Shown here in pieces: positions 24,394 through 41,438 of a stretch of DNA of 64,000 nt. Under the pieces are notes generated by a model. The model made no database searches. It saw only the letters and a program-made list of their open reading frames with translations, and was not told where the DNA came from. Positions within the stretch are counted from its first letter, which is position 1; each line of letters starts with the position of its first letter. The position numbers and the translations under genes are program-made. Origin of the DNA: Streptomyces calvus (GTDB taxonomy: Bacteria > Actinomycetota > Actinomycetes > Streptomycetales > Streptomycetaceae). The stretch covers positions 1 through 64,000 of the forward strand of contig NZ_VCNP01000012.1 in assembly GCF_006782915.1 (NCBI RefSeq). Direction: 5' to 3'.

Positions 24394-24428
24394 GGGCGGC
24401 CTCTCGCTGCACGGGATCGACGTGTCCC

Positions 24429-24462
24429 CACGGTAGGAAGCGTCCGGTCCCGGAGTCCCGGG
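24429..24462 (-). promoter_or_regulatory. Putative promoter/operator of the DUF3105-DUF305 unit
   Basis: On the plus strand, GTAGG and GGTCCCGG are separated by 8 bp, the same spacing as in the blocks at 36877-36910 and 39012-39045, but only these segments match. The repeat TCCCG-N3-TCCCG could be a response-regulator site. Confidence 0.3.
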
Positions 24463-24608
24463 GCCACGGTCCCGACGTGCTCCCAGGACGCTTCCGGGGC
24501 GGCTGTCCCACGCTCCCGGGACACGGGGCGACCTACGCTGAGCGATCGCCAGGGCCCGGCCGTTCGGCCGCGGTGCCGGCGTGCACGGACAACGGGGGTG
24601 GAGAACGC

Positions 24609-26856: not shown

Positions 26857-26867
26857 GGAACCTTCCT

Positions 26868-27626: not shown

Positions 27627-28402
27627 CAGCTCATCCCCTGTGGGTAGGGGAAGGACCGGAAGTCCTGGTCGAGCCGGTCGGTGTCCTTGACCAGCCAGGT
27701 GGTGGCGAGCCGGCGCACGGTGCGGGCCGGCAGCGGCGGGTTGATGCGGTCCTGCGCGGGCTTGGCGGTGCTCTGCACGGCCCAGGCGAAGGCCAGGGCG
27801 GGCGCGATGCGCTGCCAGCGCCGGCGGTCGATGTCCAGCAGCATCATGCCGCGCAGGTAGGCGTACCAGGTGTGGTAGCCGGGCGGCGGGAAGTCCGGGG
27901 TGGCGTTCATGGTGTGCACCAGGAACGGGGCGTGTCCGCGCGGGTCGTACAGCACGCCCTCGCCGAACCAGCCGAAGGCCTTCACGAGGTGGGGGTGGCG
28001 CCGGCCGTAGTAGCGGTCCATCACGCCGAGCTGGGTGCGCGAGAGCACTTCCAGGGGCTGTTTCACGGGTGCGAGGAACTCGGCGTAGGTGTGCGGGTAG
28101 CCGGGCTGTGCGACGAGTTCGAGCCACTTCTCCCGCATGCCGCGTTCGATGTTGCCGACGTGCGCCCTGATGGCCGCGTACGCGTCCTTCACCTCCTGGC
28201 CGGAGTTGTACAGCGTGGCTTCGTCCAGCCGGTACCAGAACTCGTTGGCACGGCGGTCTCCGCTCATTCCGGGGACCTCGGGAAGCTCGTCGTGGTGGCC
28301 GGCGGCCGCGGCCGGCCGCGCGGCGACCGTGCCGACGGCCGCGGCGGCCGCCGCTCCCAGCGAGACCCTCAGGACCTGTCGTCGATCGACGTGATGCGAC
28401 AC
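27626..28402 (-). CDS. Tat-exported protein of unknown function, paralogue 2
   Basis: 258 residues. The signal has DRRQVLRVSLGAAAAA and a cleavage region near ARPAAAA. The mature protein is helical, with ELPEVPGMSGDRRANEFWYR, DATP-like aromatic clusters, YHTWYAYLRGMMLLDIDRRR and a C-terminal FRSFPYPQGMS. It contains many Trp, Tyr and Arg residues but no recognised catalytic motif. GTG 28402 follows GGAGGAGG. It is the first gene of the unit formed with paralogue 1 and the Ino1-like enzyme. The two paralogues could work as a heterodimer; this is conjecture. Confidence 0.85.
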   Translation of the reverse strand: MSHHVDRRQVLRVSLGAAAAAAVGTVAARPAAAAGHHDELPEVPGMSGDRRANEFWYRLDEATLYNSGQEVKDAYAAIRAHVGNIERGMREKWLELVAQPGYPHTYAEFLAPVKQPLEVLSRTQLGVMDRYYGRRHPHLVKAFGWFGEGVLYDPRGHAPFLVHTMNATPDFPPPGYHTWYAYLRGMMLLDIDRRRWQRIAPALAFAWAVQSTAKPAQDRINPPLPARTVRRLATTWLVKDTDRLDQDFRSFPYPQGMS

Positions 28403-28504
28403 GTGGACGTCCTCCTCCGGCTGCGACTGCGATGCCGGAAGGCTAGGAACGGGGGCTATACGGCCGCCTGTCGTTGTTCTGTGCGTCCGTCTATACGTCC
28501 GGCG

Positions 28505-29716
28505 TCACGGCCGTGCGGAGGGACGGTCCGGCCGCGCGTCGGCGGCGGCCTCCACGAGGGCGGCCTCGACGTCGTAGCGGTGCACCCAGGACAGGTCCTC
28601 CACGACCTCGTCCAGGCCGCCGCCGCCCCCGCCGGCGGCCGGGCCCGCGGCGGGTCGCACCTTCTGTCCTCCGCCGCCGCGGGAACCGAGCTGGACGCGG
28701 GTCGTGTGCGGCCGGCGGAACTCCTCGTAGCCGCGCAGTCCGGCGGGCGTGCCGTCGAGGAAGTGCGCGAGGGCCACGGCGTCCTCCAGGGCCTGTCCGA
28801 CGCCCTGGCCGTGGTGCGGCAGCATCGGGTGGGCGGCGTCGCCGAGGAGCGTGCAGCGTCCGCGGCCCCAGTGCGGCAGCGGTTCCCGGTCGTACAGCGC
28901 CCAGCGGCCCGGCGTGCCGGCGGCCCGCACCAGGGACGTCACGTCGTCGTGCCAGCCGTCGAACGCCAGGGCCATCTCGCGGGCGTCACCGGTGGCGCTC
29001 CACGACTCCTCGGGGTCACCGGTGTCCGGCAGGACGGCCACATAGCTGAACCGCCGTCCGGCGGCGACCGGTACGACCAGCAGCCGCGCCTCCCGCCCGA
29101 CCCACATGTACATGGTGTCGGGGGCGAGCGCGGGGACCCGGTCGGCGGGCACCACGCCGCGCAGCGCGTTCGCCCCGGAGAAGACGGGACGCTCCCGTCC
29201 CGCCACGGCGCGCCGCACCGCCGAGTGCACTCCGTCGGCGCCGACGAGCAGGTCGGCCGTCGCCTCCCGCCCGTCGGCGAACCGCAGCCGTACGACGCCG
29301 TCGTGCTCGGCGAAGGACGTCAGCCGGGCGCCCAGCCGGATGTGCGCGGACGGCACCCGGTCGGCGAGCAGGGCGTGCAGGTCGCTGCGGAGCACGGTGA
29401 GGTGCGGGGCGCCGTACTGCTTCTCCCAGGTGTCGCCCATGGGCCGGCGGGTGAGGAGCCGGCCGTCCCCGGTGCGCACCTCCAGCGCCTCGGGGCGGAC
29501 GGCGACCGCGCGCAGCGCGTCCTCCAGTCCCCGGCGGAACAGGATGCGGGAGCCGTTGGGGCCAAGGTGCATTCCCACGCCCGCCTCGCGCAGGGCGGGC
29601 GCCTGTTCGTAGACGTCGACGGCGGCCCCGGCGCGCAGCAGGGCGTCGGCCGCGGCGAGACCGCCGAGGCCGGCTCCGACGACGGCGACGCGGGGTACGG
29701 GCACGGTGTTCGGCAT
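28505..29716 (-). CDS. FAD-dependent aromatic monooxygenase (group A type)
   Basis: 403 residues. The FAD GxGxxG motif is at the N-terminus (VAVVGAGLGGLAAADALLRA), the DG motif at LLVGADGVHSAVRRAV, and the GD motif at CTLLGDAAHPMLPHHGQG. This is the layout of salicylate/3-hydroxybenzoate hydroxylase-like enzymes that use NAD(P)H and O2 to hydroxylate aromatic rings. The substrate is unknown; lasso or other cluster products with Trp/Tyr are one possibility. ATG 29716 follows GGGGGA. It lies 33 bp downstream of the response regulator gene and 102 bp upstream of the Tat gene unit, all on the same strand. Confidence 0.9.
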   Translation of the reverse strand: MPNTVPVPRVAVVGAGLGGLAAADALLRAGAAVDVYEQAPALREAGVGMHLGPNGSRILFRRGLEDALRAVAVRPEALEVRTGDGRLLTRRPMGDTWEKQYGAPHLTVLRSDLHALLADRVPSAHIRLGARLTSFAEHDGVVRLRFADGREATADLLVGADGVHSAVRRAVAGRERPVFSGANALRGVVPADRVPALAPDTMYMWVGREARLLVVPVAAGRRFSYVAVLPDTGDPEESWSATGDAREMALAFDGWHDDVTSLVRAAGTPGRWALYDREPLPHWGRGRCTLLGDAAHPMLPHHGQGVGQALEDAVALAHFLDGTPAGLRGYEEFRRPHTTRVQLGSRGGGGQKVRPAAGPAAGGGGGGLDEVVEDLSWVHRYDVEAALVEAAADARPDRPSARP

Positions 29717-29749: not shown

Positions 29750-30433
29750 TCACCGCGAACCGGCCGACACCAGTCCCGTCTCGTAGGCGACGATGACCAG
29801 TTGGGCCCGGTCGCGGCTGTCGAGTTTGGTCAGCAGGTGGCTGACGTGGGTCTTGACGGTGGGCACGCTCAGCCGGAGCCGTTCGGCGATCTCCGCGTTG
29901 GTCAGCCCACGGGCGATCAGGACGAGCACTTCCCGCTCGCGGTCGGTGATCCCGGCCCGCTCCAGCGCGCGGGCCCGCGGCCGGGGTTCGCGCTCGGTAC
30001 CGCCGGCGAACTCCTCGATGAGGCGCCGCGTCACGGACGGGGCGAGCAGCCCCTCGCCGGAGGCGACCACGCGTACTCCGGCGAGCAGGTCGCCGGGCGG
30101 GGTGTCCTTGAGCAGGAAGCCGCTGGCACCGGCGCGCAGCGCGGCGTACACGTAGGCGTCCAGGTCGAACATGGTGAGGATCAGGACCCGGCTGCCGGAC
30201 GTGGCCGGCGAGCCGCAGATCCTGCGGGTGGCCTCGATGCCGTCCATCTCGGGCATCCGCACGTCCATCAGGACGACGTCGGGCCGTTCCCGTGCGGCCG
30301 CCTCGACCGCCTCGCGCCCGTTGGCGGCCTCACCGACGACGGTCAGGCCCGGCTCGTTGTCGACGAGCAGGCGGAAACTGCCCCGCAGCAGGGCCTGGTC
30401 GTCCACCACCAGCACCCGCACGTCCTCGCTCAT
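29750..30433 (-). CDS. LuxR/NarL-type response regulator
   Basis: 227 residues. The receiver (about 4-125) has VVDDQ, phospho-Asp in VVLMDVRMPEMDG, Thr in VLILTMFD and Lys in GFLLKDT. The HTH_LuxR reads ITDREREVLVLIARGLTNAE IAERLRLSVPTVKTHVSHLL. Its ATG overlaps the kinase TGA by 4 bp. It sits between the lasso exporter genes and the monooxygenase, so it may control either group. Confidence 0.95.
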   Translation of the reverse strand: MSEDVRVLVVDDQALLRGSFRLLVDNEPGLTVVGEAANGREAVEAAARERPDVVLMDVRMPEMDGIEATRRICGSPATSGSRVLILTMFDLDAYVYAALRAGASGFLLKDTPPGDLLAGVRVVASGEGLLAPSVTRRLIEEFAGGTEREPRPRARALERAGITDREREVLVLIARGLTNAEIAERLRLSVPTVKTHVSHLLTKLDSRDRAQLVIVAYETGLVSAGSR

Positions 30434-31647
30434 CGGACCGCTCCCCGGGAGGCACCGAGCGGCAGCCGGGCGACGACACGGAAGCCTCCGCCGGGCCGCG
30501 GCCCGGCCGTGAACTCCCCGTCGTAGACGGCGACCCGCTCGCGCATGCCGATGAGGCCGTGTCCGCCGCCGGAGCCGGCCGGGGTGCCCCGGTCCGGGCC
30601 CGTGCCGCGGCCCGGGCCGCCGTCGTCGCTGACCTCGATCTTCACCTGTCGTTCGTCTCTGGTGATCACGACTCGGCAGTCTGCCGGAGCCGCGTGCTTC
30701 ACGGCGTTGGTCAGGGCTTCCTGGACGAGGCGGTAGACGGTCAGGCCGAGCGCCTCGGGCAGGCCGTCCAGGTCCGGTGCGTCGAGCCGGACGCGCAGCC
30801 CGGCCTCGGTGGCGTTGCGGACCAGCCCGGCGAGGCCGGCGGTGCCCGGGACAGGGCTGAGGTCGGCGTCCGTGAGGGCACCGGTGCGCTCGGAGCGCAG
30901 CACGCCGAGCAGGTGGCGCATCTCCCGGAGCGCGTCGCGGCTGGTGGTCTCGACGACGCGCAGCGCGTCGCCCGCCTCCTCGGGCCGGGTGGCGACGACG
31001 TGGTTGGCCACGGCCGCCTTGACGGCGATGACACCGATGCTGTGCGCGACGACGTCATGCAACTCCCGGGCGATGCGCATGCGTTCCTCGGCGACGGCCC
31101 GCTCGGCGAGTTCCCGGGCGGCCTGGGCCGCGTACGCCCGTCCTTCCCGCGCGGCGGTGCCCAGGGCCCAGGAGCCCGCGATCAGGGCCCAGCCGAGGAT
31201 CATGAGGCCCGGCCCCTGCGACCACCAGTAGGTGTACGGGCTGCGGGGTTCCGGTGCGATCATGCCGCCGAGTCCGATGACCGCGGCCGCCGCGAAGGGC
31301 AGCAGGCGCTGCGTCACCCGGGACAGCGCCACGGGATAGACCGCGAACGCCACGGCGAGGAACGGGTCCGTGACCACTCCGAGGGCCACCGCCGGCGGCG
31401 ACACGACCAGGGTGACGCCGAGCACGGGCAGCGGCCACAGCCGACGGACCGCCAGGGGCAGCGCGGTGGCGGCCGCCAGGCCCGCGGCCGCCGCTGCCGG
31501 CAGGTCGGCGGGTCCGGGCGCGGCCCGGGTGTGCCACAGGACCAGCAGGAGCGCCGCGTAGCCCGCCGCGGCCAGGCCGTCGAGGGCGATGAGCTGCGCG
31601 GATGTGAACCGGCCGCCGGTCAGCGGCCCGGCGTGGGGATGATCCAT
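30430..31647 (-). CDS. Sensor histidine kinase, NarL-partner class
   Basis: 405 residues. Four to six N-terminal membrane helices (about 20-165) precede a dimerisation domain with phospho-acceptor His in MRIARELHDVVAHSIGVIAVK (about 198) and a HATPase domain (VQEALTNAVKHA; GGGHGLIGMRERVAVYDGEF). No extracellular sensor domain is visible, so it probably senses membrane state. ATG 31647 is followed by a His/Pro-rich leader. It is coupled to the response regulator by a 4-bp overlap and lies 107 bp downstream of the lasso-cluster ABC permease. Confidence 0.93.
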   Translation of the reverse strand: MDHPHAGPLTGGRFTSAQLIALDGLAAAGYAALLLVLWHTRAAPGPADLPAAAAAGLAAATALPLAVRRLWPLPVLGVTLVVSPPAVALGVVTDPFLAVAFAVYPVALSRVTQRLLPFAAAAVIGLGGMIAPEPRSPYTYWWSQGPGLMILGWALIAGSWALGTAAREGRAYAAQAARELAERAVAEERMRIARELHDVVAHSIGVIAVKAAVANHVVATRPEEAGDALRVVETTSRDALREMRHLLGVLRSERTGALTDADLSPVPGTAGLAGLVRNATEAGLRVRLDAPDLDGLPEALGLTVYRLVQEALTNAVKHAAPADCRVVITRDERQVKIEVSDDGGPGRGTGPDRGTPAGSGGGHGLIGMRERVAVYDGEFTAGPRPGGGFRVVARLPLGASRGAVR

Positions 31648-31754: not shown

Positions 31755-32654
31755 TCATTCCACACGGGAGAACCTGCGGGTCGCGATGGTCAGGGAGAGC
31801 AGGGCGAAGGCCGCGATCAAGCCGGTCTCCGCCAGGACGGGCGGCGTCCAGCCCCACCACTCGGGGCTCACCGACCCGCCGCCCATGGCCGTCGCGCCGT
31901 CGCCCGGCATGGTGCGGCGCAGCGCGTCCACGGCGTAGGTCAGCGGGTTCAGCCGGACCACCGTGCCGAGCCAGCCGGGCAGTCCGTCGACGGGGAACAT
32001 GGCGCCGGACAGGAAGAAGAGCGGCAGCATGCACAGGCTGACCGCGACCTGGAAGGTCTCCGGACGCCGGATGCAGACGGCCGCCGCGACGCCGAGCGCG
32101 GTGAACGCGAAGGACACCAGGACCACTTGCAGGAGCACCAGCAGGAGCTGCGGGTGGTACGGCACGTCCGCGACGGGGCCCAGCAGCAGCACCAGCACGC
32201 CGTAGGCCGCGCCGGAGGTGGCACCGCCGAGACAGGTGCCCACCAGGATGGCGCTGCGGCGGACCGGCGCCACCAGCATCTGCCGCAGGAAGCCGGACCG
32301 CCGGTCCCACACGATGGACGCGCCCACGGCGATGGCCGGCGCCTGGACCGACATCAGCACGACTCCGGGGAAGAGGAACGCCCGGAAGTCACGCAGGCTG
32401 TCCTCGGACATGGCGGAGTTCAGGCCGGTGCCGAGCACCAGCAGGAACATCAGCGGTGTGACCATGCCCATGGCGATGCGCAGCTTGTTGCGGCTGAAGC
32501 GGATGGTCTCCCGGTGCCAGAGCACCTTCACGGTGCGCAGGTCCCGGGCGGCCCGGCCGCCGCCGGCGGAGCCCGGTGGGACGGGTGCGGGCCGGGCCCG
32601 GCCGGGCGGGCCCGCCCGTTCCGCCCGTGCCCGGTGCACCTCGGTCTGTGCCAT
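31755..32654 (-). CDS. ABC-2 type permease of lasso cluster exporter (DrrB-like)
   Basis: 299 residues. A basic, Pro-rich cytosolic N-terminus (about 45 residues) is followed by six membrane helices in ABC-2 layout: FLLVLGTGLNSAM, PAIAVGASIVWDRRSGFLRQ, LVLLLGPVADV, FFLSGAMFPVDGLPGWL. The FL.Q.L.APV segment is typical of daunorubicin-type exporters. It probably exports the mature peptide or confers self-resistance together with the ATPase 2 bp upstream. GAGGAGG precedes ATG 32654. It is the last biosynthetic gene of the lasso unit. Confidence 0.9.
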   Translation of the reverse strand: MAQTEVHRARAERAGPPGRARPAPVPPGSAGGGRAARDLRTVKVLWHRETIRFSRNKLRIAMGMVTPLMFLLVLGTGLNSAMSEDSLRDFRAFLFPGVVLMSVQAPAIAVGASIVWDRRSGFLRQMLVAPVRRSAILVGTCLGGATSGAAYGVLVLLLGPVADVPYHPQLLLVLLQVVLVSFAFTALGVAAAVCIRRPETFQVAVSLCMLPLFFLSGAMFPVDGLPGWLGTVVRLNPLTYAVDALRRTMPGDGATAMGGGSVSPEWWGWTPPVLAETGLIAAFALLSLTIATRRFSRVE

Positions 32655-32656
32655 GG

Positions 32657-33622
32657 CTACCTCCTCGGCCCGAAGTGGGGCTGCTGGGGACCGTCGGCCT
32701 CCCGGATGGTGCGGCCGGTGTAGTGCAGGAAGACGTCGTCGAGGGTGGGCGGGGTGACGGTCACCGCGTGGACGGGGACGGCGAGTTCGGCGCAGAGCCG
32801 GGGCACGAATCCGGCGCCGTCCTGGGTGCGCAGGCGCACGCCGTCGGGCCCGGTGTCCGCCTTCAGGCCGAAGCGGTCCTGCACCGCCAGGGCCGCCCGC
32901 TCGTCGTCGTCGGTCCGCAGGACGACCAGATCCGCTCCGACGACCGCCTTCAGCCCGGCGGGCGTGCCCTCGACCACCAGCTGCCCCTGGTCCATGATCG
33001 CCATCCGGTCGCAGTGCTCGGCCTCCTCCAGGTGGTGCGTGGTGAGGAAGATGGTGATCTCCTGCTCGGCGCGCAGCCGGTGCAGGTGTTCCCAGATGGA
33101 CACCCTGGTCTGCGGGTCGAGGCCGGTGGTCGGCTCGTCCAGGAAGAGCACGCGGGGCGTGTGCAGCAGTCCGCGGGCGATCTCCAGCCGGCGCCGCATG
33201 CCGCCGGAGAAGGTGCGCACGGGCGAGTCCTTGCGGTGGGTCAGCTCCACCAGGTCGAGCAGTTCGCTGATCGCCCGTCGGGCGCGGGCGCGGGGCAGCC
33301 CGAACAGGTCCGCCTGGAAGCGGAGGTTCTCCTCGGCGGTCAGCTCGCCGTCCAGCGTGGACTCCTGGAAGACCAGGCCGATGCCGCGCCGGACGGCGTC
33401 GGCCTCGCGGGTGATGTCGTGCCCGGCGACCTCGGCCCGGCCGGCCGACGGCCGCAGCAGGGTGCACAGCATGCCGATGGTGGTGCTCTTGCCCGCGCCG
33501 TTGGGTCCGAGGAAGCCGTAGGTCTCGCCGGGTGCGACGGCCAGGTCCAGGTCGACGACGGCCTCATGGGTGCCGTAGGTCTTGCGCAGCCCTTCCACGA
33601 GCACCGCGTGCGGGCCGCTCAC
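32657..33622 (-). CDS. ABC transporter ATPase of lasso cluster exporter (DrrA-like)
   Basis: 321 residues. Walker A is GFLGPNGAGKSTT, the signature TFSGGMRRRLEIARGL, Walker B VLFLDEPTTGLD and the switch His in TTHHLEEAEHCD. The C-terminal extension (about 235-320: PTLDDVFLHYTGRTIRE) is the DrrA-type tail. GTG 33622 overlaps the B2 stop by 4 bp, tying the exporter to lasso maturation genes. Two ABC systems flank the precursor genes; this one is nearest the B and C genes and is the likely exporter. Confidence 0.95.
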   Translation of the reverse strand: MSGPHAVLVEGLRKTYGTHEAVVDLDLAVAPGETYGFLGPNGAGKSTTIGMLCTLLRPSAGRAEVAGHDITREADAVRRGIGLVFQESTLDGELTAEENLRFQADLFGLPRARARRAISELLDLVELTHRKDSPVRTFSGGMRRRLEIARGLLHTPRVLFLDEPTTGLDPQTRVSIWEHLHRLRAEQEITIFLTTHHLEEAEHCDRMAIMDQGQLVVEGTPAGLKAVVGADLVVLRTDDDERAALAVQDRFGLKADTGPDGVRLRTQDGAGFVPRLCAELAVPVHAVTVTPPTLDDVFLHYTGRTIREADGPQQPHFGPRR

Positions 33623-34050
33623 CGCTTCGTCTCCGCGGACGGGTGGCGGACGCTCATCACGGCGTGGAACAGCCCGGTGTCGTCGGGTTCGCCGACCGGC
33701 CGGCCCTCCGCCTCGACCCAGGCGTGGGCGCGGAACGGCTGGGTGCGCACGCCCGTGCACCAGTCGGGCCACGTGCCGTGCAGCCGGCACAGCAGGACGG
33801 TGGCGACGGACCGCTCCAGGCAGCCCTGTCCGGCGCACCAGGCGCTGACGGACACCACGGAGCTGCGGGCGTCGAGGGTCTGCGCGGCGGTGGCCGGCTT
33901 GGCGCCGCGCGAGACGGCCCGCAGGACGCGGCGCAGGCGACGCGGCGGCACCTTGGCGAGGAGGTGCGCGGCTCCGACCGCGCACCGGGCGGTGACGTGC
34001 CGGTGCCAGCTGATCCTGACGGACTGTTCGGAGACGACGGGCATGCTCAT
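33619..34050 (-). CDS. Lasso peptide leader peptidase B2 (transglutaminase-like)
   Basis: 143 residues. The catalytic Cys lies in CAGQGCLERSVATVLLCRL, followed by WPDWCTGVRTQPFRAHAWVE with the conserved His of the Cys-His-Asp triad. These are the hallmarks of the B2 half of split lasso B proteins, which cut off the leader peptide after the penultimate Thr. ATG 34050 overlaps the B1 stop (ATGA), and its stop overlaps the ATPase GTG, so the genes are translationally coupled. It acts with B1, which presents the leader. Confidence 0.95.
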   Translation of the reverse strand: MSMPVVSEQSVRISWHRHVTARCAVGAAHLLAKVPPRRLRRVLRAVSRGAKPATAAQTLDARSSVVSVSAWCAGQGCLERSVATVLLCRLHGTWPDWCTGVRTQPFRAHAWVEAEGRPVGEPDDTGLFHAVMSVRHPSAETKR

Positions 34051-34307
34051 GAGACCACCACCAGACGGGCCTTGACCAGGGACTGCAGCAGGACGCGCAC
34101 ATCGGTCCGGGCCCGTTCGGCGGCCTCCGGGCGGTTGCGGGTGAGCGCCTGGGCGGCCTCCTCGGCGGAGTTGCCGTCGAGGAGCAGCCGCAGGGTGGCC
34201 GCGCCGGAGCGGTTGAGCTGCCAGTAGCGGCCGGTGCGCTGGTCGAGGAGGACGACTCCGTCCTCGACGTCGGTGACGATCACGTCGGGTTCCAGGGTGC
34301 AGTTCAT
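34047..34307 (-). CDS. Lasso peptide leader-binding protein B1 (RRE, PqqD-like)
   Basis: 86 residues with the PqqD-like winged-helix pattern: DVIVTDVEDGVVLLDQRTGR, WQLNRSGAATLRLLLDGNS and a C-terminal helix-strand ending LVKARLVVVS. This RiPP recognition element binds the YxxPxL part of the leader and delivers the precursor to B2 and C. It overlaps the C-gene stop by 4 bp (ATGA) and B2 by 4 bp. Length is normal for stand-alone B1 proteins. Confidence 0.95.
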   Translation of the reverse strand: MNCTLEPDVIVTDVEDGVVLLDQRTGRYWQLNRSGAATLRLLLDGNSAEEAAQALTRNRPEAAERARTDVRVLLQSLVKARLVVVS

Positions 34308-36139
34308 CGGGGTCCTCCCGCGGGGGACGCGGCGAGCGGAGCGACGGCACTGGGTGACCGCAGCCAGGTCTCGCAGGCGAGGGTGTTCTCGAAGGGGCTG
34401 AGCGCCCGCGTGTCGGGGGTGGGCCGGTACAGCGCGGCGCGCAGCGCACCGGCGTCGACGAGTCCGAGGTCGGCGAGGCGCAGTGCGTCGCAGAGTTCGG
34501 CGAGCCGCTCGCGGTTGCGGTAGAGCCCTTCGTAGGCCTCCTGGCCGAAGGCGCCCTTGTCACGGCGGTTGAGCACGGCGTCGGGCACGGTGGTGCGCAG
34601 GGCGGTGGTGAGCACCGGTTTGTAGTGGCCGGGCATCACCCGGTCGGCGACCCGGACCGAGAGGGCGGCGTCGATGACGCGGTCGTCCAGGAACGGCGTC
34701 TCGAAGGTGACGCCCAGCGGGCGCAGGGAGCGGTTGAGCTGGCGGGCGGCGTGCCCGCTGGTCACGGTGACCTCGAGCGTCTGGTGCTGGAGCCGGTCGG
34801 GGTGCAGGGGCCGGGGGCGGCGCGCGGCGGTCTCGTTCAGCAGGCGCCTGACGGTCGCGACGGCGTCCCGGGTGGCCCACTCGGGCATGCGGGGGTCTCC
34901 GCGGCCCCAGCCGAGCGGCGGGGTGAAGCGGGGCGCCGGCGGGGCGTCGATGCCCTGGGCGGCGCGCGCCATGGTGTCGGCGAAGGAGGTGCGGTCGGCG
35001 AGCGAGCGCAGGGTCGCGCCGAGCGGCCACCGGTTGACGGAGCGGAACCTGCGCATGGTCCGGATGCCGCGCAGCGGGTCGCTGCGGATCAGTGACCAGC
35101 CGAACTGGGGCGATATGCCGAACAGTTCGTCGCCTCCGACGCCGATGAGGTGCCGGGTGGCGCCCGCGTCGCGGACGGTGCGGGCGAGGCTCTCGGTGTG
35201 GGCGCGGTTGCGCGTCCACACCAGGGGGCCCTCGACGTCGTCGCTCGCGCCGTCGCGGTCGGGGGCGGCCTCGTACCAGACCGGGCCGTCGGCGGCGGTC
35301 GCGAAGCGGTGCCCGGCGTCCGGCATGAGGTCGGCGGCCCGCCGCGCCCATCGGGTGTCGGCGTTGGCGCGGTCCATCGGCTCCCAGTGGTGGGTGAGCA
35401 GGCGGGCGTCGGTCGCGTCGGCGAGGAAGCAGAGGCTGGTGGAGTCGAGGCCGCCGGACAGGTCGGCGCTGATGACGTCCTGGTGGTCGGCGCGTACGGC
35501 CACGGAGTCGACCAGCGCGTCCCGGATGGCGTCGGCCGCCCGTGCGACGGGGGTGTCGGGCTCGGGCGGCGTCCACCAGGTGACCTCACGTGCGTCGCCG
35601 TCCGGCCGCACGTCCAGCCAGCAGCCGACGCCGAGGGTTTCCACACCGGTCCAGACGGGGCGTCCGGACAGCGGCCAGGGGACGGGGAGCAGGAGTTGGA
35701 GGGCGAGCGTCTCCTCGTGCAGGCGCGTCTCCATGAGGGCGGTCAGACCGCTCGGGCTGTCCGCGGCGACGGTGACGCCGCCGATCCGCGCGTGGAAGAC
35801 GTGCCGTGCGGTGGACAGGGAGCCCTGCGTCCGGGTGCGGCCGTCGAAGGAGGCGGCGAGGTGGAAGCTGCCGGGGAGCGAGCGGGCGAGGGAGTCGAGG
35901 TCGTGCGGCGCTCGGGAGTTGTCCAGCAGCCGGGCGAGCGGGCCGGTGTCGGCGCGGGTGGGGCCGAGCAGCGCGAGCCGGTTGCGGCCGCCGTCGACGA
36001 GGACGCACTCCTCGTCCTCCCAGCGGCCGACCAGCCAGGGACGGCCCGAGGCGTGGGCGACGCTCCGGGTGCCGGGCCCGGCCGCCGCACGCGCGAAGGG
36101 CTGCGCCGCGGCGCAGTCGGGAAGGATCAGAAACTCCAT
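34304..36139 (-). CDS. Lasso cyclase C (asparagine synthetase-like)
   Basis: 611 residues. The N-terminal half is a glutamine-amidotransferase-like fold that lacks the Cys1 nucleophile (MEFLILPDC). The C-terminal half has the ATP pyrophosphatase P-loop SADLSGGLDSTSLCFLA and GVGGDELFG. Lasso C enzymes adenylate the Asp/Glu side chain of the core and form the isopeptide bond with the freed N-terminal Gly. ATG 36139 follows AAGGGGAC. Three 11-bp repeats and a strong hairpin separate it from precursor A1, so its expression relative to the precursor may be set by readthrough. Confidence 0.96.
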   Translation of the reverse strand: MEFLILPDCAAAQPFARAAAGPGTRSVAHASGRPWLVGRWEDEECVLVDGGRNRLALLGPTRADTGPLARLLDNSRAPHDLDSLARSLPGSFHLAASFDGRTRTQGSLSTARHVFHARIGGVTVAADSPSGLTALMETRLHEETLALQLLLPVPWPLSGRPVWTGVETLGVGCWLDVRPDGDAREVTWWTPPEPDTPVARAADAIRDALVDSVAVRADHQDVISADLSGGLDSTSLCFLADATDARLLTHHWEPMDRANADTRWARRAADLMPDAGHRFATAADGPVWYEAAPDRDGASDDVEGPLVWTRNRAHTESLARTVRDAGATRHLIGVGGDELFGISPQFGWSLIRSDPLRGIRTMRRFRSVNRWPLGATLRSLADRTSFADTMARAAQGIDAPPAPRFTPPLGWGRGDPRMPEWATRDAVATVRRLLNETAARRPRPLHPDRLQHQTLEVTVTSGHAARQLNRSLRPLGVTFETPFLDDRVIDAALSVRVADRVMPGHYKPVLTTALRTTVPDAVLNRRDKGAFGQEAYEGLYRNRERLAELCDALRLADLGLVDAGALRAALYRPTPDTRALSPFENTLACETWLRSPSAVAPLAASPAGGPR

Positions 36140-36148
36140 GTCCCCTTC

Positions 36149-36181
36149 TTCGGTTGGGCTTCGGTTGGGCTTCGGTTGGGC
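36149..36181 (-). repeat. Three exact 11-bp tandem repeats before the cyclase gene
   Basis: TTCGGTTGGGC occurs three times in a row (36149, 36160, 36171), just upstream of the cyclase ribosome site on the minus strand. It could arise by slippage and might influence mRNA structure in the A1-C gap. Confidence 0.7.
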
Positions 36182-36192
36182 GCGAACATGCG

Positions 36193-36223
36193 GACGCGTG
36201 GCGGCGGACGGCCGCCACGCGTC
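36193..36223 (-). terminator. Hairpin (attenuator) between precursor A1 and cyclase
   Basis: Perfect 13-bp arms GACGCGTGGCGGC / GCCGCCACGCGTC with a 5-nt loop, 4 bp after the A1 stop. Such hairpins commonly raise precursor mRNA over enzyme mRNA in RiPP operons. Confidence 0.7.
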
Positions 36224-36227
36224 GGGG

Positions 36228-36362
36228 TCAGCAGACCCAGGCGGAGGTGCCGAGCCAGTCCACGCAGTCGGTCAGCGGTGCGCCGAGCGTCAGGTCGGAG
36301 AAGTCGCCGACCTCCACCAACTGCGGTGCCTCGTAGGCGTCGAGGACGTCGTTCGCCGTCAT
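36228..36362 (-). CDS. Lasso peptide precursor A1
   Basis: 44 residues. The leader (MTANDVLDAYEAPQLVEVGD then FSDLTL) has the YxxPxL motif for B1 and Thr at position -2. The predicted core is GAPLTDCVDWLGTSAWVC, 18 residues. Gly1 would close a 9-membered ring onto Asp9, and Cys7 in the ring can pair with C-terminal Cys18, the arrangement of class III lasso peptides such as BI-32169. AAGGAG lies 6 nt before ATG 36362. It lies upstream of the cyclase after the A2 gene. I do not recognise this core as a named compound. Confidence 0.92.
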   Translation of the reverse strand: MTANDVLDAYEAPQLVEVGDFSDLTLGAPLTDCVDWLGTSAWVC

Positions 36363-36667
36363 GCCGGTCTCCTTCGGATCGCGTGCGGGAACGCGGCGGC
36401 GAGGCCGCACCGGCAGTGGTCACCGGTGCCGCCCCACCGTCCGGGTCCTGTCGGGCACGTGTCTGCGCCGCCCCGGAGGACGGCCCGGCGTCGGGCGGGT
36501 GAACGCACCGGCTCCGCCGAGCGGTTGCCGCACGGGATCTCGGCGTGCGGCGTGCTCACCGCCGTCGTCCGGGGTTCCCGGGCGGCAGGGGTACGGCGGC
36601 GGAGCGGCTCCTCAGGGATCGCCCCGCCGCCGGGTGTGCGGCGGCGGTCACCGCCTCACGACGGTGC
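36363..36667. other. Gap between precursors A1 and A2
   Basis: These 305 bp carry the A2 downstream hairpin and no further gene. On the minus strand they run from A2 to A1. No copy of the shared upstream block found before A2 and A3 is seen here, so A1 may be read from the A2 promoter. Confidence 0.5.
36624..36647 (-). terminator. Hairpin after precursor A2
   Basis: Arms CCGCCGCCG / CGGCGGCGG with a 6-nt loop, 20 bp past the A2 stop. Confidence 0.55.
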
Positions 36668-36793
36668 TCAGCAGAACCAGGCGTCGCCGCCCCACCAGTC
36701 GACGCAGTCCTCGGGACCGGCGCCGAGCGTCAGCTCCGCGAAGCCGCCGACCTCGACGAGCGCGGGCGTCTCGTACTCCTCGTGCGTGCCCAT
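36668..36793 (-). CDS. Lasso peptide precursor A2
   Basis: 41 residues. The leader MGTHEEYETPALVEVGGF then AELTL carries YxxPxL and the penultimate Thr. The predicted core is GAGPEDCVDWWGGDAWFC, 18 residues, ring Gly1-Asp9 and disulfide Cys7-Cys18. It shares CVDW.G..AW.C with A1 but is otherwise different, so two products are expected. GAAGGAGG lies just before ATG 36793. A strong hairpin at 36820-36866 lies in its probable 5' leader and a conserved 34-bp block at 36877-36910 upstream of that. Confidence 0.93.
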   Translation of the reverse strand: MGTHEEYETPALVEVGGFAELTLGAGPEDCVDWWGGDAWFC

Positions 36794-36819
36794 GTTCACC
36801 CTCCTTCTTCTCAGACGGT

Positions 36820-36866
36820 GGGGTGCGGCCGCGGCCGGCGCGTTCACGCCACCGCGGCCGCACCCC
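36820..36866 (-). terminator. Strong hairpin between ABC permease and precursor A2
   Basis: Perfect 15-bp arms GGGGTGCGGCCGCGG / CCGCGGCCGCACCCC with a 17-nt loop. It may end the transporter transcript or, if transcription starts at the 36877-36910 block, lie in the A2 leader RNA. Confidence 0.6.
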
Positions 36867-36876
36867 GGGTCACGCA

Positions 36877-36910
36877 CAACGTAGGCGGCCCGCGGTCCCG
36901 GGCTCTTGGG
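36877..36910 (-). promoter_or_regulatory. Conserved block upstream of precursor A2 (promoter/operator)
   Basis: On the plus strand it reads CAACGTAGG, 8 variable bases, then GGTCCCGGGCTCTTGGG. The block before A3 (39012-39045) has the same parts with the same spacing. On the minus strand this gives a GAGCCC / TACGTT pair 16 bp apart. The start codon is 84 bp away. Confidence 0.55.
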
Positions 36911-36955
36911 CGCGCCGTCCCGTCCCCGTCCCGCGTCCGCGCCCGCCGCGGCGGT

Positions 36956-37726
36956 TCAGGCGTCGCGCCGCCGCAGCGCCAGATAGCCGCCGGCGAGGGC
37001 GACGACCACCCAGGCCACGAGGACGGCCATGCCGCTCCACGCGTCGAGGATCATGTGCTCCTGCGCTTCCCGGCGCATGATGATGCCTCCGGCCGCGTCA
37101 GGCAGGAACTGGGCGGCCTTCTGCACGCCGGGCAGGTTGTTGAGGATCTCCGAGACCATGAAGAACAGCGGCACGAGAATGCCGAGGGTGAGCGCCGGTG
37201 TGCGCAGCACGGTCGCAAGGCCCATGGAGAAGGCGCAGATCAGGGTCATGTAGAGGATCGACCCGACCACCGCGCGCAGTGCCCCGTCGTCGGTGATCGA
37301 GGCGTTGTGCGCCTCGCCGATGGCGGTCTGGGCGGTGAAGAAGGTGACGAGCACGACGACGACGGAGACGGCCAGGGCGATGGCGGTGCCGGTGAGCACC
37401 TTGGCCGCGTAGAAGACACCGCGCCGCGGGACGGCGGCGAGGGAGGCGCGGATGGTGCCGGAGGTGTACTCACCGGTGACGGTGAGCGTGCCGAAGACGA
37501 CCAGGGAGATCATGCCGAGCCGCAGCCCGTTGAAGCCGGAGCCGACCGGGTCGAAGTCGGCCTTGCTCTGCGCGCTCATGTCGTCGTAGGCGCCGCGCAG
37601 CACCCAGCCGAAGAGCAGGGCGATCAGGACGCTGACGAGGAAGCACAGGAGGAGGCTCCACAGGCTGGAGCGCACCGTACGGATCTTGGTCCATTCGAAC
37701 GCGATGGCCGCGCGCGGGTCACCCAT
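36956..37726 (-). CDS. ABC-2 type permease, second lasso-region transporter
   Basis: 256 residues with six predicted membrane helices: SLWSLLLCFLVSVLIALLFG, FGTLTVTGEYTSGTIRASL, ALAVSVVVVLVTFF, a 4th and 5th around SILYMTLICAFSMGLATVL and LTLGILVPLFFMVSEILNNL, and AVLVAWVVVALAGGYLAL. The GEYTSGTIR segment is typical of bacitracin/lantibiotic-immunity type permeases. It overlaps the ATPase gene end by 8 bp. Sitting between precursors A3 and A2, it may give self-protection while the other transporter exports. Confidence 0.9.
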   Translation of the reverse strand: MGDPRAAIAFEWTKIRTVRSSLWSLLLCFLVSVLIALLFGWVLRGAYDDMSAQSKADFDPVGSGFNGLRLGMISLVVFGTLTVTGEYTSGTIRASLAAVPRRGVFYAAKVLTGTAIALAVSVVVVLVTFFTAQTAIGEAHNASITDDGALRAVVGSILYMTLICAFSMGLATVLRTPALTLGILVPLFFMVSEILNNLPGVQKAAQFLPDAAGGIIMRREAQEHMILDAWSGMAVLVAWVVVALAGGYLALRRRDA

Positions 37727-38642
37727 GGTCAGCGCTCCTGCTCTCGGCACGGTAGTCGGCCGCGTCGGCCGTGAGCTGCATGAAGGCCTCCTCCAGGGAG
37801 GCGGTACGGGGGCTGATCTCGTGGATGGTGACCCCGTGGCGGGAGGCGAGTTCGCCGACCTTCTCCGAGCTGGTCCCGACCGCTTCGAGCGTGCCGTCGG
37901 GTCCGTCGTCGGTGTGGACGCCGGCGTCGGTGAGGACGTCGCGCATCCGCTGCGGTTCTGGGGTGCGGATCAGGATGTACGCGCGGGAGTTGCGGGCGAT
38001 GAACTGTTCCACGGAGGTGTCGGCGAGCAGCCTGCCGCGGCCGATCACGATGAGGTGCTCGGCGGTGAGCGCCATCTCGCTCATCAGGTGGCTGGAGACG
38101 AAGACGGTGCGGCCTTCCTCCGCCAGTTGCCGCATCAGCCCGCGGATCCACAGGATGCCTTCGGGGTCGAGGCCGTTGACCGGCTCGTCCAGGAGCAGGA
38201 CGGGCGGGTCGCCGAGCAGTGCGCAGGCGACGCCGAGCCGCTGGGCCATGCCGAGGGAGAAGCCCTCGGTGCGCCTGTCCGCCGCGCCGGTGAGTCCGAC
38301 GGTGTTCAGGACCTCGTCGACGCGCCGGTCCGGGATGCGGTTGCTGCGGGCCAGGCCCAGCAGGTGGGCGCGGGCGGTGCGGCCGCCGTGGAGTGCCTTG
38401 GCGTCGAGCAGCGCGCCGACCTCACGCAGGGGGTACCGCAGGTCCGTGTACGACCGGCCGTCGATGAGGACCCGTCCGGAGGTGGGGCGGTCGAGTCCGA
38501 TCATGGCCCGCATGGTGGTCGACTTTCCCGCTCCGTTGGGCCCCAGGAAGCCGGTCACCCGGCCGGGGTCGACCGTGAACGACAGCCCGTCGACGGCCAG
38601 GGTGCTCCCGTACCGTTTGGTGAGTTGCTGTACCTCAATCAT
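37719..38642 (-). CDS. ABC transporter ATPase, second lasso-region transporter
   Basis: 307 residues. Walker A is GFLGPNGAGKSTTMRAMIGL, the signature FSLGMAQRLGVACALLG (LGMAQ rather than the usual SGGQ, as in BcrA-type ATPases), Walker B VLLLDEPVNGLDPEG and the switch His in SSHLMSE. The C-terminal 80 residues form the BcrA-like accessory domain (SPRTASLEEAFMQLTADAAD). ATG 38642 has only a weak GGTGAG site. It is preceded on the strand by precursor A3 and its hairpin, so part of its transcription may come through that structure. Confidence 0.95.
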   Translation of the reverse strand: MIEVQQLTKRYGSTLAVDGLSFTVDPGRVTGFLGPNGAGKSTTMRAMIGLDRPTSGRVLIDGRSYTDLRYPLREVGALLDAKALHGGRTARAHLLGLARSNRIPDRRVDEVLNTVGLTGAADRRTEGFSLGMAQRLGVACALLGDPPVLLLDEPVNGLDPEGILWIRGLMRQLAEEGRTVFVSSHLMSEMALTAEHLIVIGRGRLLADTSVEQFIARNSRAYILIRTPEPQRMRDVLTDAGVHTDDGPDGTLEAVGTSSEKVGELASRHGVTIHEISPRTASLEEAFMQLTADAADYRAESRSADHG

Positions 38643-38725
38643 GGGCTCACCATGGCGCGCGGCCCGGCCGGGCACATCGGGCCGGAGGATGTCATCCCCG
38701 GGACCGAATCCGGGCGGGGAACAGG

Positions 38726-38763
38726 CCGGCGGCGGTGGAGGGCAGTCCCTCCACCGCCGCCGG
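38726..38763 (-). terminator. Very strong hairpin after precursor A3
   Basis: Perfect 17-bp arms CCGGCGGCGGTGGAGGG / CCCTCCACCGCCGCCGG with a CAGT loop, 47 bp past the A3 stop and 84 bp before the ABC ATPase start. Confidence 0.75.
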
Positions 38764-38809
38764 GTGGGGCGGGCCGTCACCGGCCCTCTTCGGTACGGGT
38801 GGAACCGGG

Positions 38810-38932
38810 TCAGCAGACCCAGGCACCGCCGCCGTACCAGTCGACGCACTGGTTGTCCCAGCCGAGGGTCAGCTCGGAGAACTCGCCGACCTCGACCAGC
38901 TCGGGCGTCTCGTACTCGTCGTACAGGGCCAT
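38810..38932 (-). CDS. Lasso peptide precursor A3, detached from A1/A2
   Basis: 40 residues. The leader MALYDEYETPELVEVGEF then SELTL matches A2 nearly throughout, with YxxPxL and penultimate Thr. The predicted core is GWDNQCVDWYGGGAWVC, 17 residues. The ring would be 8-membered, Gly1-Asp8, with Cys6-Cys17 as disulfide, one residue shorter than in A1 and A2. AAGGACGG lies 7 nt before ATG 38932. It stands alone between the regulator genes and the second ABC transporter, with its own upstream block and hairpins. At 123 bp it falls below the size cut-offs of many gene finders. Confidence 0.92.
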   Translation of the reverse strand: MALYDEYETPELVEVGEFSELTLGWDNQCVDWYGGGAWVC

Positions 38933-39001: not shown

Positions 39002-39011
39002 GCTGCGCCGC

Positions 39012-39045
39012 CAACGTAGGACTCCCGTCGTCCCGGGCTCCTGGG
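39012..39045 (-). promoter_or_regulatory. Conserved block upstream of precursor A3 (promoter/operator)
   Basis: CAACGTAGG, 8 variable bases, then CGTCCCGGGCTCCTGGG on the plus strand. It matches the block before A2 in sequence and spacing and lies 80 bp from the A3 start. The adjacent response regulator is a candidate binder. Confidence 0.55.
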
Positions 39046-39076
39046 GCCGCGGGCCCGAGAAGGTCCCGCCCTGTGC

Positions 39077-39739
39077 TCAGACGCCGAGTCCGGCGTCCCG
39101 GGCGCGCACCACGGCCGTCGCCCGGTCGCTCACCTGGAGCTTGGCGAAGACGTGCGAGACGTGGTTGCGCACGGTCTTCTCGGCCAGCACCAGTTCGCGG
39201 GCGATCCGCCGGTTGGTGTAGCCCCGGGCGATCAGGTCGAGTATCTGCCGCTCGCGCTCGGTGAGCTGCGGGAAGGCGGCACGGCTGGGCAGTTCGTGGA
39301 CGGCGGAGAAGTAGCCGCTCAGTCGCGCGGCCACGGTGGGGCTGAAGACCGCGCCCTGCCCGGCGACGGTGCGCACGGCCCTGATGAGTTCGGTCCGGGG
39401 CGCCCCCTTGAGGAGATAGCCGTGCGCGCCCGCCCGGAGCGCCGCGACGACCATGTCGTCGTCATCGGTCACGGACATCATCAGCACGCGGGGGGCCTCG
39501 GCACCCGGGTGGTGGGCGGCCGTGATGGCGGGCAGCGCGGAGACACCCGACGAGCCCGGCATCTGGACGTCCATCAGGACCACGTCGGCGCGGACCCTTT
39601 CGTGCACGAGGGCCTGCACGGCTTCCTCGCCGCTGTCCGCCTCCCCGACCACCTCCATGTCCTCCACGTCCTCCAGCGCCAGCCGTACGCCCGCGCGGAA
39701 CAGCGGATGATCGTCCACGAGGAAGACGCGTATGGTCAT
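39077..39739 (-). CDS. LuxR/NarL-type response regulator of the lasso region
   Basis: 220 residues. The receiver has LVDDHPLFRAGVR, phospho-Asp in VVLMDVQMPGSSG, Ser in place of Thr in VLMMSVTDDDD, and Lys in GYLLKGAP. The HTH_LuxR reads LTERERQILDLIARGYTNRR IARELVLAEKTVRNHVSHV. ATG 39739 overlaps the kinase stop by 4 bp. The stop is 31 bp from the conserved block before precursor A3, on the same strand, so control of precursor transcription is a natural hypothesis. Confidence 0.94.
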   Translation of the reverse strand: MTIRVFLVDDHPLFRAGVRLALEDVEDMEVVGEADSGEEAVQALVHERVRADVVLMDVQMPGSSGVSALPAITAAHHPGAEAPRVLMMSVTDDDDMVVAALRAGAHGYLLKGAPRTELIRAVRTVAGQGAVFSPTVAARLSGYFSAVHELPSRAAFPQLTERERQILDLIARGYTNRRIARELVLAEKTVRNHVSHVFAKLQVSDRATAVVRARDAGLGV

Positions 39740-40665
39740 GTCTCGCTCCGCGGCAGCCTGGCGCGGACGAGGGTTCCGGGTGTGCCGTCGGGCCGCGGCA
39801 GCACCTCGCAGGTGCCTCCGGTGTCCTGGGCGCGCCGGGCCATGGACGCGAGCCCGATGCCGCGCCGGCGCCGGAGGGCCCCGGGGCGCGGCGGCCCGCT
39901 CCCGTCGTCGGTCACCTCGAGCGTCAGCCAGCCCTCGTGCTCGGTCAGCCGTACCTCGGCGGTCCGGGCCCGGGCGTGGCGCAGAACGTTCGTCAAAGCC
40001 TCCGAAGCGATGCGGTAGACGGCGAGTTCGGTGGCGAAGGACAGCCTGCGCGCCGTTTCGGGCTCCGGCAGATCGACGTGGACGTCGAGCTGTCCCGTGG
40101 CGCCCGCGCGGTGTGCAAGCCGGCGCAGGGCTCCGGGGAGTCCACCGCCGCCCTCCAGGTCCGGAGGTCGCAGGTCGTCGATGATGCGCCGGATGTCGTC
40201 CACGGTGCGCGCGGTTTCGGCCGCCGCGTCGAGGATGAGCTGCCGGGTTCCCGGCTGGGCGACCCGCTCGGCCGCGACATCCAGCCGGAGCCGGATGCCG
40301 GCGAGCGCCGGGCCGAGGCTGTCGTGCAGGTCGACCCGGAGGCGGCTGCGTTCGTCCTCGCGGGCTGCGACCAGTTGCTCCCCGAGCCCGCCGACGAACA
40401 CGTCGCCGTGTCGCGCCAGACGCCAGTGCGGCAGGACTCCCCAGGCGTGTCCCACGAGGCCGAGGACACACAGGATGACGGACGCCCCGACGGCCAGGTC
40501 GAGGTCCGAGGGCCTGGGCAGCACTCCGAGCAGGCCGATGGCGGCGAGGCAGACCAGTGCCGCTGCCCCGCGCACCCGTAACGCGGAGGACGAGAATTCC
40601 TCCGCTCGATCGTCGTTGTGTCCGGTTCTCCACTCTTGAGACGTTCTCCCCCGATGCGTTCTCAT
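39736..40665 (-). CDS. Sensor histidine kinase of the lasso region
   Basis: 309 residues, short for the class. Two membrane helices (about 35-50 and 58-80: LVCLAAIGLLGVLPRP, LAVGASVILCVLGLVGHAWG) lead directly to the dimerisation helix with phospho-acceptor His in SRLRVDLHDSLGPALAGIRL (about 118) and a HATPase domain (ASEALTNVLRHARA; RRRGIGLASMARRAQDTGG). With almost no extracytoplasmic loop, it probably senses membrane stress or a membrane ligand. I start at ATG 40665; an in-frame start at 40719 would add 18 residues. Confidence 0.9.
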   Translation of the reverse strand: MRTHRGRTSQEWRTGHNDDRAEEFSSSALRVRGAAALVCLAAIGLLGVLPRPSDLDLAVGASVILCVLGLVGHAWGVLPHWRLARHGDVFVGGLGEQLVAAREDERSRLRVDLHDSLGPALAGIRLRLDVAAERVAQPGTRQLILDAAAETARTVDDIRRIIDDLRPPDLEGGGGLPGALRRLAHRAGATGQLDVHVDLPEPETARRLSFATELAVYRIASEALTNVLRHARARTAEVRLTEHEGWLTLEVTDDGSGPPRPGALRRRRGIGLASMARRAQDTGGTCEVLPRPDGTPGTLVRARLPRSET

Positions 40666-41438
40666 GGCGCCCAAGTTAACTCGTTTCCGGTAAACCAGGG
40701 AGCCGGATTCCGGCCGCAACGGGGAAATCCGAGACGCTGTTTAACCGGGCCCGCGCACTTCGTGGACCCACTCCGGCGACTTCACCCTTCCGCAAACAAA
40801 CCTCCACTAGCGGAAAGGCCGCTTCACCTTTCCGCACCCCTTGCCACCAGGCGTCTCCGGCTCGGAATACCGCCGCGCACCGCCGGTCGGTGTTCTCCTC
40901 CCGGTACGGGGAGATCGTCTCGTGTTCGATCTTTGCGCGCTGTCCCGACCGGTCGGCATGTTCGGCCGTTCACCGTCGAATGCCGCCCGGAACGGGCCGC
41001 GAAAACGCCGTTGCCGGGCACGGATCGAACTCGGCAATCGGCGCCGGGCGCGGTCGCCGTCGACCTGTCGGTCCGCGGTTTTGGCGGCACCGAAAGGCAC
41101 CGGTCGCGGAAACGGAGGCGCGATCTCTGCGCGCTGCGACGGACCGCGCCACGGGCCGCGGACACGGCCGGACTCGGGAGGCGGATCGCGCCCGGCTCCC
41201 GTCGGGCCCCGCTGTCCGGCTTCCGTTCGGGCCCTGCTGTCCGGCTTCCGTTCGGGCCCTGCTGTCCGGCTTCCGTCAGAGTCTGCTGTCCGGCTTCGGT
41301 TCGGACCCTGCTGTCCGGCCGCGGCGGGTCTCGTCGGCCGCCGGGGCGAGGCCGGTTCCCGGGAAAGGCGTACAACCATGGGGGCAGTTGGTCGGTCTCT
41401 TCAGTGACCGCTCTGGTCGCATTTACGAGGAGACCGTC
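40666..41438. other. 773-bp non-coding region with tandem repeats
   Basis: It starts with an AT-richer promoter-like stretch (40667-40720) diverging from the kinase gene. It includes a hairpin GCGGAAAGG (40810-40818) / CCTTTCCGC (40827-40835) and the 25-bp repeat array at 41192-41321. Open frames here are Arg/Pro/Gly-rich and look non-coding. Confidence 0.55.
41192..41321 (+). repeat. Tandem 25-bp repeat array
   Basis: The unit GCTGTCCGGCTTCCGTTCGG-GCCCT occurs at 41211 and 41236 exactly, as a 24-bp variant at 41261 and a 25-bp variant at 41285. Partial copies flank both sides. It lies about 120 bp upstream of the lipoprotein gene. Confidence 0.8.

Follow-up and report, generated by a model that had tools for sequence, protein, structure and literature searches.

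A conserved Streptomyces gene cluster for predicted class III lasso peptides of two ring sizes, related to 9401-LP1, with a candidate promoter switch

Introduction

In class III lasso peptides, the ring and the tail are joined by one disulfide (PMC9266682, PMC13352647). A 2022 review names BI-32169 and 9401-LP1 as members of this very small class and describes its biosynthesis as very little understood (PMC9266682). We describe here a cluster with three lasso precursor genes, whose products are predicted to belong to this class, in a stretch of 64,000 nucleotides from Streptomyces calvus (NZ_VCNP01000012.1, positions 1-64,000), hereafter the window. The lasso block occupies positions 31755-38932 on the minus strand. 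A first-pass annotation of this DNA had regarded the topology as rare, which agrees with the few members known (PMC9266682, PMC5974421), and had chosen BI-32169 for comparison.

9401-LP1 of Streptomyces sp. ADI94-01 was described as the third class III example. Its class was verified by mass, dithiothreitol reduction and carboxypeptidase; it has a single disulfide and a nine-residue ring, according to its sequence and an A1-W10 digestion product, and it was inactive against the six species assayed (PMC5974421). BI-32169 has a nine-residue ring (PMC12427821), closed between Gly1 and Asp9, and a ring-to-tail disulfide (PMC12427821, PMC13352647), but its gene cluster was unknown as of 2022 (PMC9266682). 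Outside the class, caulosegnins I-III come from three precursors and one enzyme set, with rings of eight or nine residues (PMC13352647). What triggers lasso peptide synthesis in native producers has been called largely unknown (PMC5974421).

Results and discussion

The lasso block reads A3-BcrA-BcrB-A2-A1-C-B1-B2-DrrA-DrrB along the minus strand, and profile searches found there all the genes named by the first-pass annotation, i.e., those for cyclase C, B1, B2, the DrrAB and BcrA-type exporters and three precursors. A3 (38810-38932), A2 (36668-36793) and A1 (36228-36362) score 34.1, 34.0 and 36.9 bits, respectively, with the lasso leader model NF033521, the cut-off of which is 19. Cyclase C (34304-36139) belongs to the asparagine synthase family (PF00733, 9.2e-37), B1 (34047-34307) is a PqqD-like leader-binding protein matching the lasso PqqD chaperone model NF033530 above cut-off (1.5e-29), and the leader peptidase B2 (33619-34050) matches PF13471 and, above cut-off, the lasso_biosyn_B2 model NF033537 (1.5e-34). 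The block thus combines B1, B2 and C with lasso leaders that carry Thr at position -2, the signature of a lasso cluster. At E <= 0.001, the precursor profile detects A1, A2 and A3 and no further precursor in this genome; in 392 genomes from the genus and 394 from the class, the next nearest hit is a precursor in the genome G212 (E 6e-11).

With cleavage placed after Thr-Leu, the predicted cores are GWDNQCVDWYGGGAWVC for A3 (17 residues, Asp8, Cys6/Cys17), GAGPEDCVDWWGGDAWFC for A2 (18 residues, Asp9, Cys7/Cys18) and GAPLTDCVDWLGTSAWVC for A1 (18 residues, Asp9, Cys7/Cys18). Matches of the core pattern inside cyclases, at GNDRL strings, were not taken as precursors. Each core begins with Gly1, carries a ring Cys two positions ahead of the Asp and ends with a Cys nine residues after that Asp, in agreement with the earlier reading of Gly1, Asp8 or Asp9 and a C-terminal Cys. 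As ring segment and tail each hold one Cys in all three cores, the pattern fits a Gly1-Asp8/9 ring with a ring-to-tail disulfide, and class III topology, already proposed as a prediction, is likewise what we predict for the products of A1, A2 and A3. The acid at position 9 that is typical of a BI-32169-type ring is present in A1 and A2 but not in A3. The class I pattern of siamycin, four Cys including Cys1, is absent from the three cores, all of which have two Cys and Gly1. The cores had been reported as unrecognized, and six core strings indeed had no match in the open-access literature, a coverage that leaves aside subscription journals, supplements and databases of ribosomally synthesized and post-translationally modified peptides. 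An open-access search for three precursors and a disulfide in Streptomyces lasso clusters surfaced only a review.

Related clusters were sought with short peptide patterns, which can miss relatives, in 84,980 species, each represented by one genome. Three relatives have cyclases 81-82% identical to that of S. calvus: S. canus 299MFChir4.1 (L034), Streptomyces sp. Z26 (L035) and RP5T (L036), whose contig stops within C. All three carry orthologs of A3 and A2 at matching places with the common Cys/Asp/Trp pattern. A1 is absent from the three related clusters and was found only in S. calvus among the four. Thr-Leu precedes Gly1 in all nine precursors of the four species, and no variation occurs in the ring Cys, in the Asp and its following Trp, or in the AW-x-C end. 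The nonsynonymous rate dN is below the synonymous rate dS in 12/12 A2/A3 ortholog pairs, a weak test with 40 codons, one pair being near equal (0.078/0.084). Chance open reading frames (ORFs) as the source of the precursors are ruled out by the strong leader profiles and by this conservation. The presence of three cores of class III type in one cluster, which had been put forward as remarkable, is real; it is not unique in kind, as three other species carry the cluster with two precursors and the caulosegnins provide a precedent in class II.

By sequence, the closest known product is 9401-LP1 and not BI-32169, so that the choice of BI-32169 for comparison holds for the class but not for the nearest relative. 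The predicted cores of A1 and A2 share with 9401-LP1 (AFGPCVENDWFAGTAWIC) the tail Cys18 and Asp9 as well as the A-W-x-C end, and a near-identical core, AFGPCVENDWLLGTAWIC, which differs from it at 2/18 positions, is encoded in G212 by a precursor gene with the same operator (see below). As a check of the mass formula, the value calculated for 9401-LP1 was 983.916, and the reported m/z is 983.92 (PMC5974421). Without gaps, A2 has 8/18 positions in common with 9401-LP1, a number reached by 4 of 20,000 shuffles, and A1, the most divergent core, has 5/18 (162 of 20,000 shuffles); A2 of S. canus has nine. The differences are Ala1 in 9401-LP1 versus Gly1, and its ring Cys at position 5 versus 7 in A1 and A2 or 6 in A3. 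One precursor was found in the G212 cluster versus three here. BI-32169 resembles the predicted products by its Gly1-Asp9 ring and ring-to-tail disulfide, but it is a 19-mer with Cys6/Cys19 and another tail. A degenerate pattern for its gene, allowing <=2 mismatches, matched none of the 392 genomes.

A tree of 43 cyclases agrees with this placement. The cyclases of S. calvus and its three relatives form a clade (100/100), which the G212 cyclase, 55% identical to C of S. calvus, joins at 91/82. Two cyclases of clusters with the Cys-free core GLPFGGNTDLFSASTPIWG join next, with moderate values (82/69). Nine cyclases with four-Cys class I cores form the sister group of these seven (99/99), and the whole lies within a 100/99 clade. 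Because the tree places them in one such clade, the class I, class III and Cys-free types are, on sequence grounds, on one cyclase lineage. The siamycin, MS-271 and sviceucin group of class I thus provides the sister cyclases, and the same exporters occur in most of the loci compared, but its peptides have four Cys, two disulfides and Cys1. In siamycin, the tail pairs with a ring Cys that precedes the Asp by two residues, as we propose for A1-A3. GLPFGGNTDLFSASTPIWG was found in L049 and L090 (genomes G363 and G109), in clusters with the same exporters, a Streptomyces antibiotic regulatory protein (SARP) and the operator. It equals BI-32169 at 7/19 positions (11 of 20,000 shuffles) and has Gly at both Cys positions.

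One enzyme set would thus face rings of nine residues (A1, A2) and of eight residues (A3), and the A3/A2 pair is present in all four species. To our knowledge, A3 would be the first class III peptide with an eight-residue ring. It may be that only part of the set becomes threaded class III peptide, with A3 or A1 poorly processed, or with branched rings or free thiols as the outcome. In favour of this, the ring of BI-32169 has nine residues, and A1 is both the most divergent core and missing from the three relatives. On the other hand, A3 is kept in 4/4 species with Asp8 and both Cys, and A1 retains its Cys, its Asp, both Trp and the ribosome-binding site AAGGAG before its ATG. The caulosegnins show that one enzyme set can yield rings of both sizes, and the enzymes of fusilassin accept rings of 7-10 residues (PMC13352647). 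We consider such a partial outcome rather unlikely, though it is a serious competitor to the maturation of the whole set. Compared with the caulosegnins, the cores here are unrelated and belong to Streptomyces, the caulosegnins being class II peptides of Caulobacter without disulfide.

No dedicated disulfide oxidoreductase was found among the proteins scanned, which represent part of the ORFs of the region. The svi and msl clusters of class I contain two disulfide-related genes, none of which was seen in the S. calvus cluster; product was still obtained from msl knock-outs, and the 9401-LP1 cluster is described as having no such gene (PMC9266682). Because none was seen among the scanned proteins, the predicted disulfide is likely to form by spontaneous or household oxidation. 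An FAD monooxygenase encoded nearby (28505-29716) was set aside as a tailoring or disulfide enzyme, as it resembles aromatic hydroxylases.

In all four species, a TAnnnT box upstream of A3 and A2 has CGGGAC-type repeats at positions -50, -39 and -17 relative to it, i.e., 11 and 22 bp apart, and the same layout precedes the 9401-LP1-like and GLPFGG precursors. The predicted SARP-type operator/promoter of A3 lies at 39011-39068 (minus strand), its repeats standing before TACGTT, and that of A2, which probably also serves A1, at 36876-36933 (minus strand). A 26-bp form of the operator, with <=3 mismatches allowed, has three matches in 8 Mb, all in the window: those of A3 and A2 and one about 70 nt before a SARP gene. 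The reversed control gave none, and the mean over 100 shuffles of the window was 0.01. The site before the SARP gene (24484-24541, plus strand) turned up unasked in these pattern scans. The gene itself (24609-25394, plus strand) codes for a transcriptional activator of 261 residues with the N-terminal winged-helix DNA-binding domain (Trans_reg_C, PF00486) and the BTAD domain (PF03704, 2.4e-46) that characterize SARPs; the SARP/AfsR models stay under cut-off. Its homologs in S. canus and RP5T are 89% and 88% identical, respectively, and those of G363 and G109, which adjoin DrrB, 58%.

A looser form of the operator, with <=1 mismatch, gave 10 matches in five relatives, seven before lasso precursors, two before SARP genes (S. 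canus and RP5T) and one before a gene for a twin-arginine translocation (Tat)-signal protein in G212, and three in the reversed control. The pattern was loosened after viewing the SARP promoter of S. canus, so independence holds for the SARP site of RP5T and the Tat site of G212 but not for the S. canus site. We also scored sites with a matrix built from the eight A3/A2 sites only, for which the maximum over 20 one-strand shuffles was 6.8. The A3 and A2 sites of the window, part of the training set, score 71.2 and 68.1 bits. Among sites outside that set, those before the SARP gene score 20.0 in the window and 33.6 in S. canus, and those before the DUF3105-DUF305 genes, divergent from the SARP gene (24428-24485, minus strand), 33.5 and 21.1, respectively. 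The scores are 28.1 for the G212 Tat site, 18.4 for the G212 precursor and 12.4 and 13.7 for the GLPFGG precursors. A site before the class I (CLPSGDC) precursor of L084, with its -10 at 6393, reaches 16.9, and no score >8 was obtained for L082, L083, L085, L128 and L139. Because the same promoter form precedes the L084 precursor, the phased-repeat switch may predate the class III group.

In published SARP sites, direct repeats 11 or 22 bp apart lie just upstream of the -10 box (PMC10936776, PMC10972967). The repeats described here have these distances, with a gap to the -10 box of 8-11 bp according to the choice of repeat end (published, 8 bp). Their form and position indicate that the SARP is the probable switch of the cluster. 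Several observations weigh against this assignment. G212 has the operator, but no SARP was seen in the stretch read round its cluster (C51:4000-40500), the best match, of 54%, being on another contig. Seen from the lasso block, the SARP gene is 4.4 kb past that of the response regulator RR1, other genes intervening, and in S. canus it is about 6 kb further away; no site was seen before the SARP genes of G363 and G109. A second response regulator of the NarL/LuxR type, RR2 (39077-39739, minus strand; PF00072, PF00196), has 84% identity in the three relatives and is also conserved beside the precursor of G212 (64%) and that of the G363 and G109 clusters (56%). Because no SARP was seen near the G212 operator and RR2 stands beside the A gene there, RR2 could be the binder, and the SARP would then be part of a neighbouring DUF3105-DUF305 locus that shares the site by chance. 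NarL-type regulators, however, prefer inverted heptamers, which counts against RR2, and the 11/22-bp repeats near the -10 box have the published SARP form. The site also precedes the SARP gene itself in the window, S. canus and RP5T. RR2 therefore appears to us an improbable binder, although its position in the other clusters keeps it in contention.

We propose that the SARP would bind the phased CGGGAC repeats and turn on A3, A2 and its own gene, A1 being expressed by read-through from A2. Hairpins 3' of the precursor genes would cut read-through, so that precursor would be made in excess over the enzymes. The one after A3 (38726-38763) has a 17-bp stem and that after A1 (36193-36223) a 13-bp stem (z -2.83); the one after A2 (36594-36632) has a matching place in 3/3 relatives. 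All are on the minus strand, and the first 90 nt 3' of A3 and A2 have z of -5.35 and -2.65, respectively. Terminator-like motifs are known 3' of lasso precursor genes (PMC5974421). This step is weakened by the relatives, one of which has a strong hairpin within 90 nt after A3 and two of which do not. B1 would then bind the YxxPxL leader and B2 would cleave after Thr-Leu. C would activate Asp9 (A1, A2) or Asp8 (A3) and close the ring onto Gly1 around the tail, which the Trp two positions ahead of the C-terminal Cys would keep in place. That Cys would then pair with the one in the ring, no dedicated oxidoreductase being involved. DrrAB and BcrAB would export the products and protect the producer, and two sensor pairs would report on the envelope.

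The sequences themselves establish the genes, their conservation, the repeated operator and the cyclase tree. We consider it quite probable that, by this route as a whole, a single enzyme set of the cluster yields two or three class III lasso peptides. That it is intact but silent or decaying, with no product in practice, is very unlikely, since the core genes are open along their full length and dN is below dS in the pairs above, weak as that test is with such short genes, although many actinobacterial lasso clusters are silent in laboratory conditions (PMC5974421). That the products act on a narrow range of relatives is a guess only, to which we give somewhat less than even credence. What is new here, judging from the sequences, is a conserved class III family with two predicted ring sizes, nearest to 9401-LP1, together with a candidate switch. 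In four species, the family would offer natural pairs of eight- and nine-residue rings handled by a single enzyme set. Its cyclases connect class I and class III phylogenetically, and its candidate promoter switch might serve to activate such clusters.

The exporter genes, all on the minus strand, code for a BcrA-type ATP-binding cassette (ABC) ATPase (37719-38642; PF00005), whose top NCBIfam match, the lantibiotic-protection ATPase TIGR03740, is under cut-off; its ABC-2 permease partner BcrB (36956-37750; PF12679), which starts at either GTG 37750 or ATG 37726; a DrrA-type ABC ATPase (32657-33622; TIGR01188 above cut-off); and a DrrB-type ABC permease (31755-32654; PF01061, 3.7e-31; TIGR01247 only under cut-off). 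The lasso block is bracketed by two two-component pairs on the same strand, at 29750-31647 and 39077-40719. The first consists of the histidine kinase HK1 (30430-31647; PF07730, PF02518; 73-75% identity in L035 and L034) and the NarL/LuxR-type RR1 (29750-30433; PF00072, PF00196; 86-89% identity there), and the second of RR2 and the histidine kinase HK2 (39736-40719; PF07730, PF02518). The functional unit is likely to extend past 31755-38932 to include both pairs and the SARP gene. The DUF3105 and DUF305 genes (23042-24393, minus strand; PF11303, PF03713), kept beside the SARP gene in S. canus, are possible regulon members.

Between RR1 and the SARP gene, positions 25690-29716 (minus strand) hold the FAD monooxygenase, two tandem Tat-signal proteins of unknown family (26868-28402) and a myo-inositol-phosphate synthase. 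This block also neighbours the lasso cluster of S. canus, Z26 and RP5T (the synthase being partly read in Z26), and occurs in part elsewhere in Streptomyces without lasso genes. The succession of FAD monooxygenase, Tat protein and synthase is found as well in G245 and G118, where no lasso genes were seen up to about 7 kb away, a further reason for setting the monooxygenase aside. The Tat protein occurs in 17/392 genomes, in 6/6 of those with a cyclase of the present clade versus 11/386 others (Fisher 2.6e-9, a value that is too small because the genomes are related). Because the synthase gene adjoins the Tat gene in 8 of the 11 genomes outside the clade, we favour the Tat protein as a separate unit, and the two Tat-signal proteins, judged by this occurrence, are doubtful cluster members. 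The operator was seen before the Tat gene only in G212, not in the window or RP5T. The AlphaFold model of the Tat protein has a mean pLDDT of 47.5, and a sequence search of the PDB gave no matches.

A wider reading, which we offer as doubtful, is that one cyclase matures class III lassos with eight- and nine-residue rings, including the first eight-residue ring of the class, as a conserved mixture of two products (three here), under a dedicated SARP regulon that would also include proteins of unknown role, a Tat-exported one in one relative and DUF3105-DUF305 here. If so, these proteins would be new parts of lasso biology, e.g., in immunity or targeting.

Two more lasso loci with B1, B2 and C are present in the same genome, L050 (contig C40) and L051 (contig C2), for which the leader pattern finds no precursor. 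Clusters with several precursors are not unique, by their sequences: in L077 (G035:C5, ~371275-371706), three lasso precursors are in tandem, and one core, GCTYGYNLEDAGAGPWYCYAAG, has a possible class III Cys pair. The core GGCDYGNDNHYQTMCPSP of L093 (G686:C1, ~805426) may likewise hold a Cys pair that joins ring and tail. L018, L019, L021, L023 and L085 have CCGRW-motif precursors with adjacent Cys in the ring segment, whose cores seem to begin with Val, Ile or Leu or to be cleaved elsewhere.

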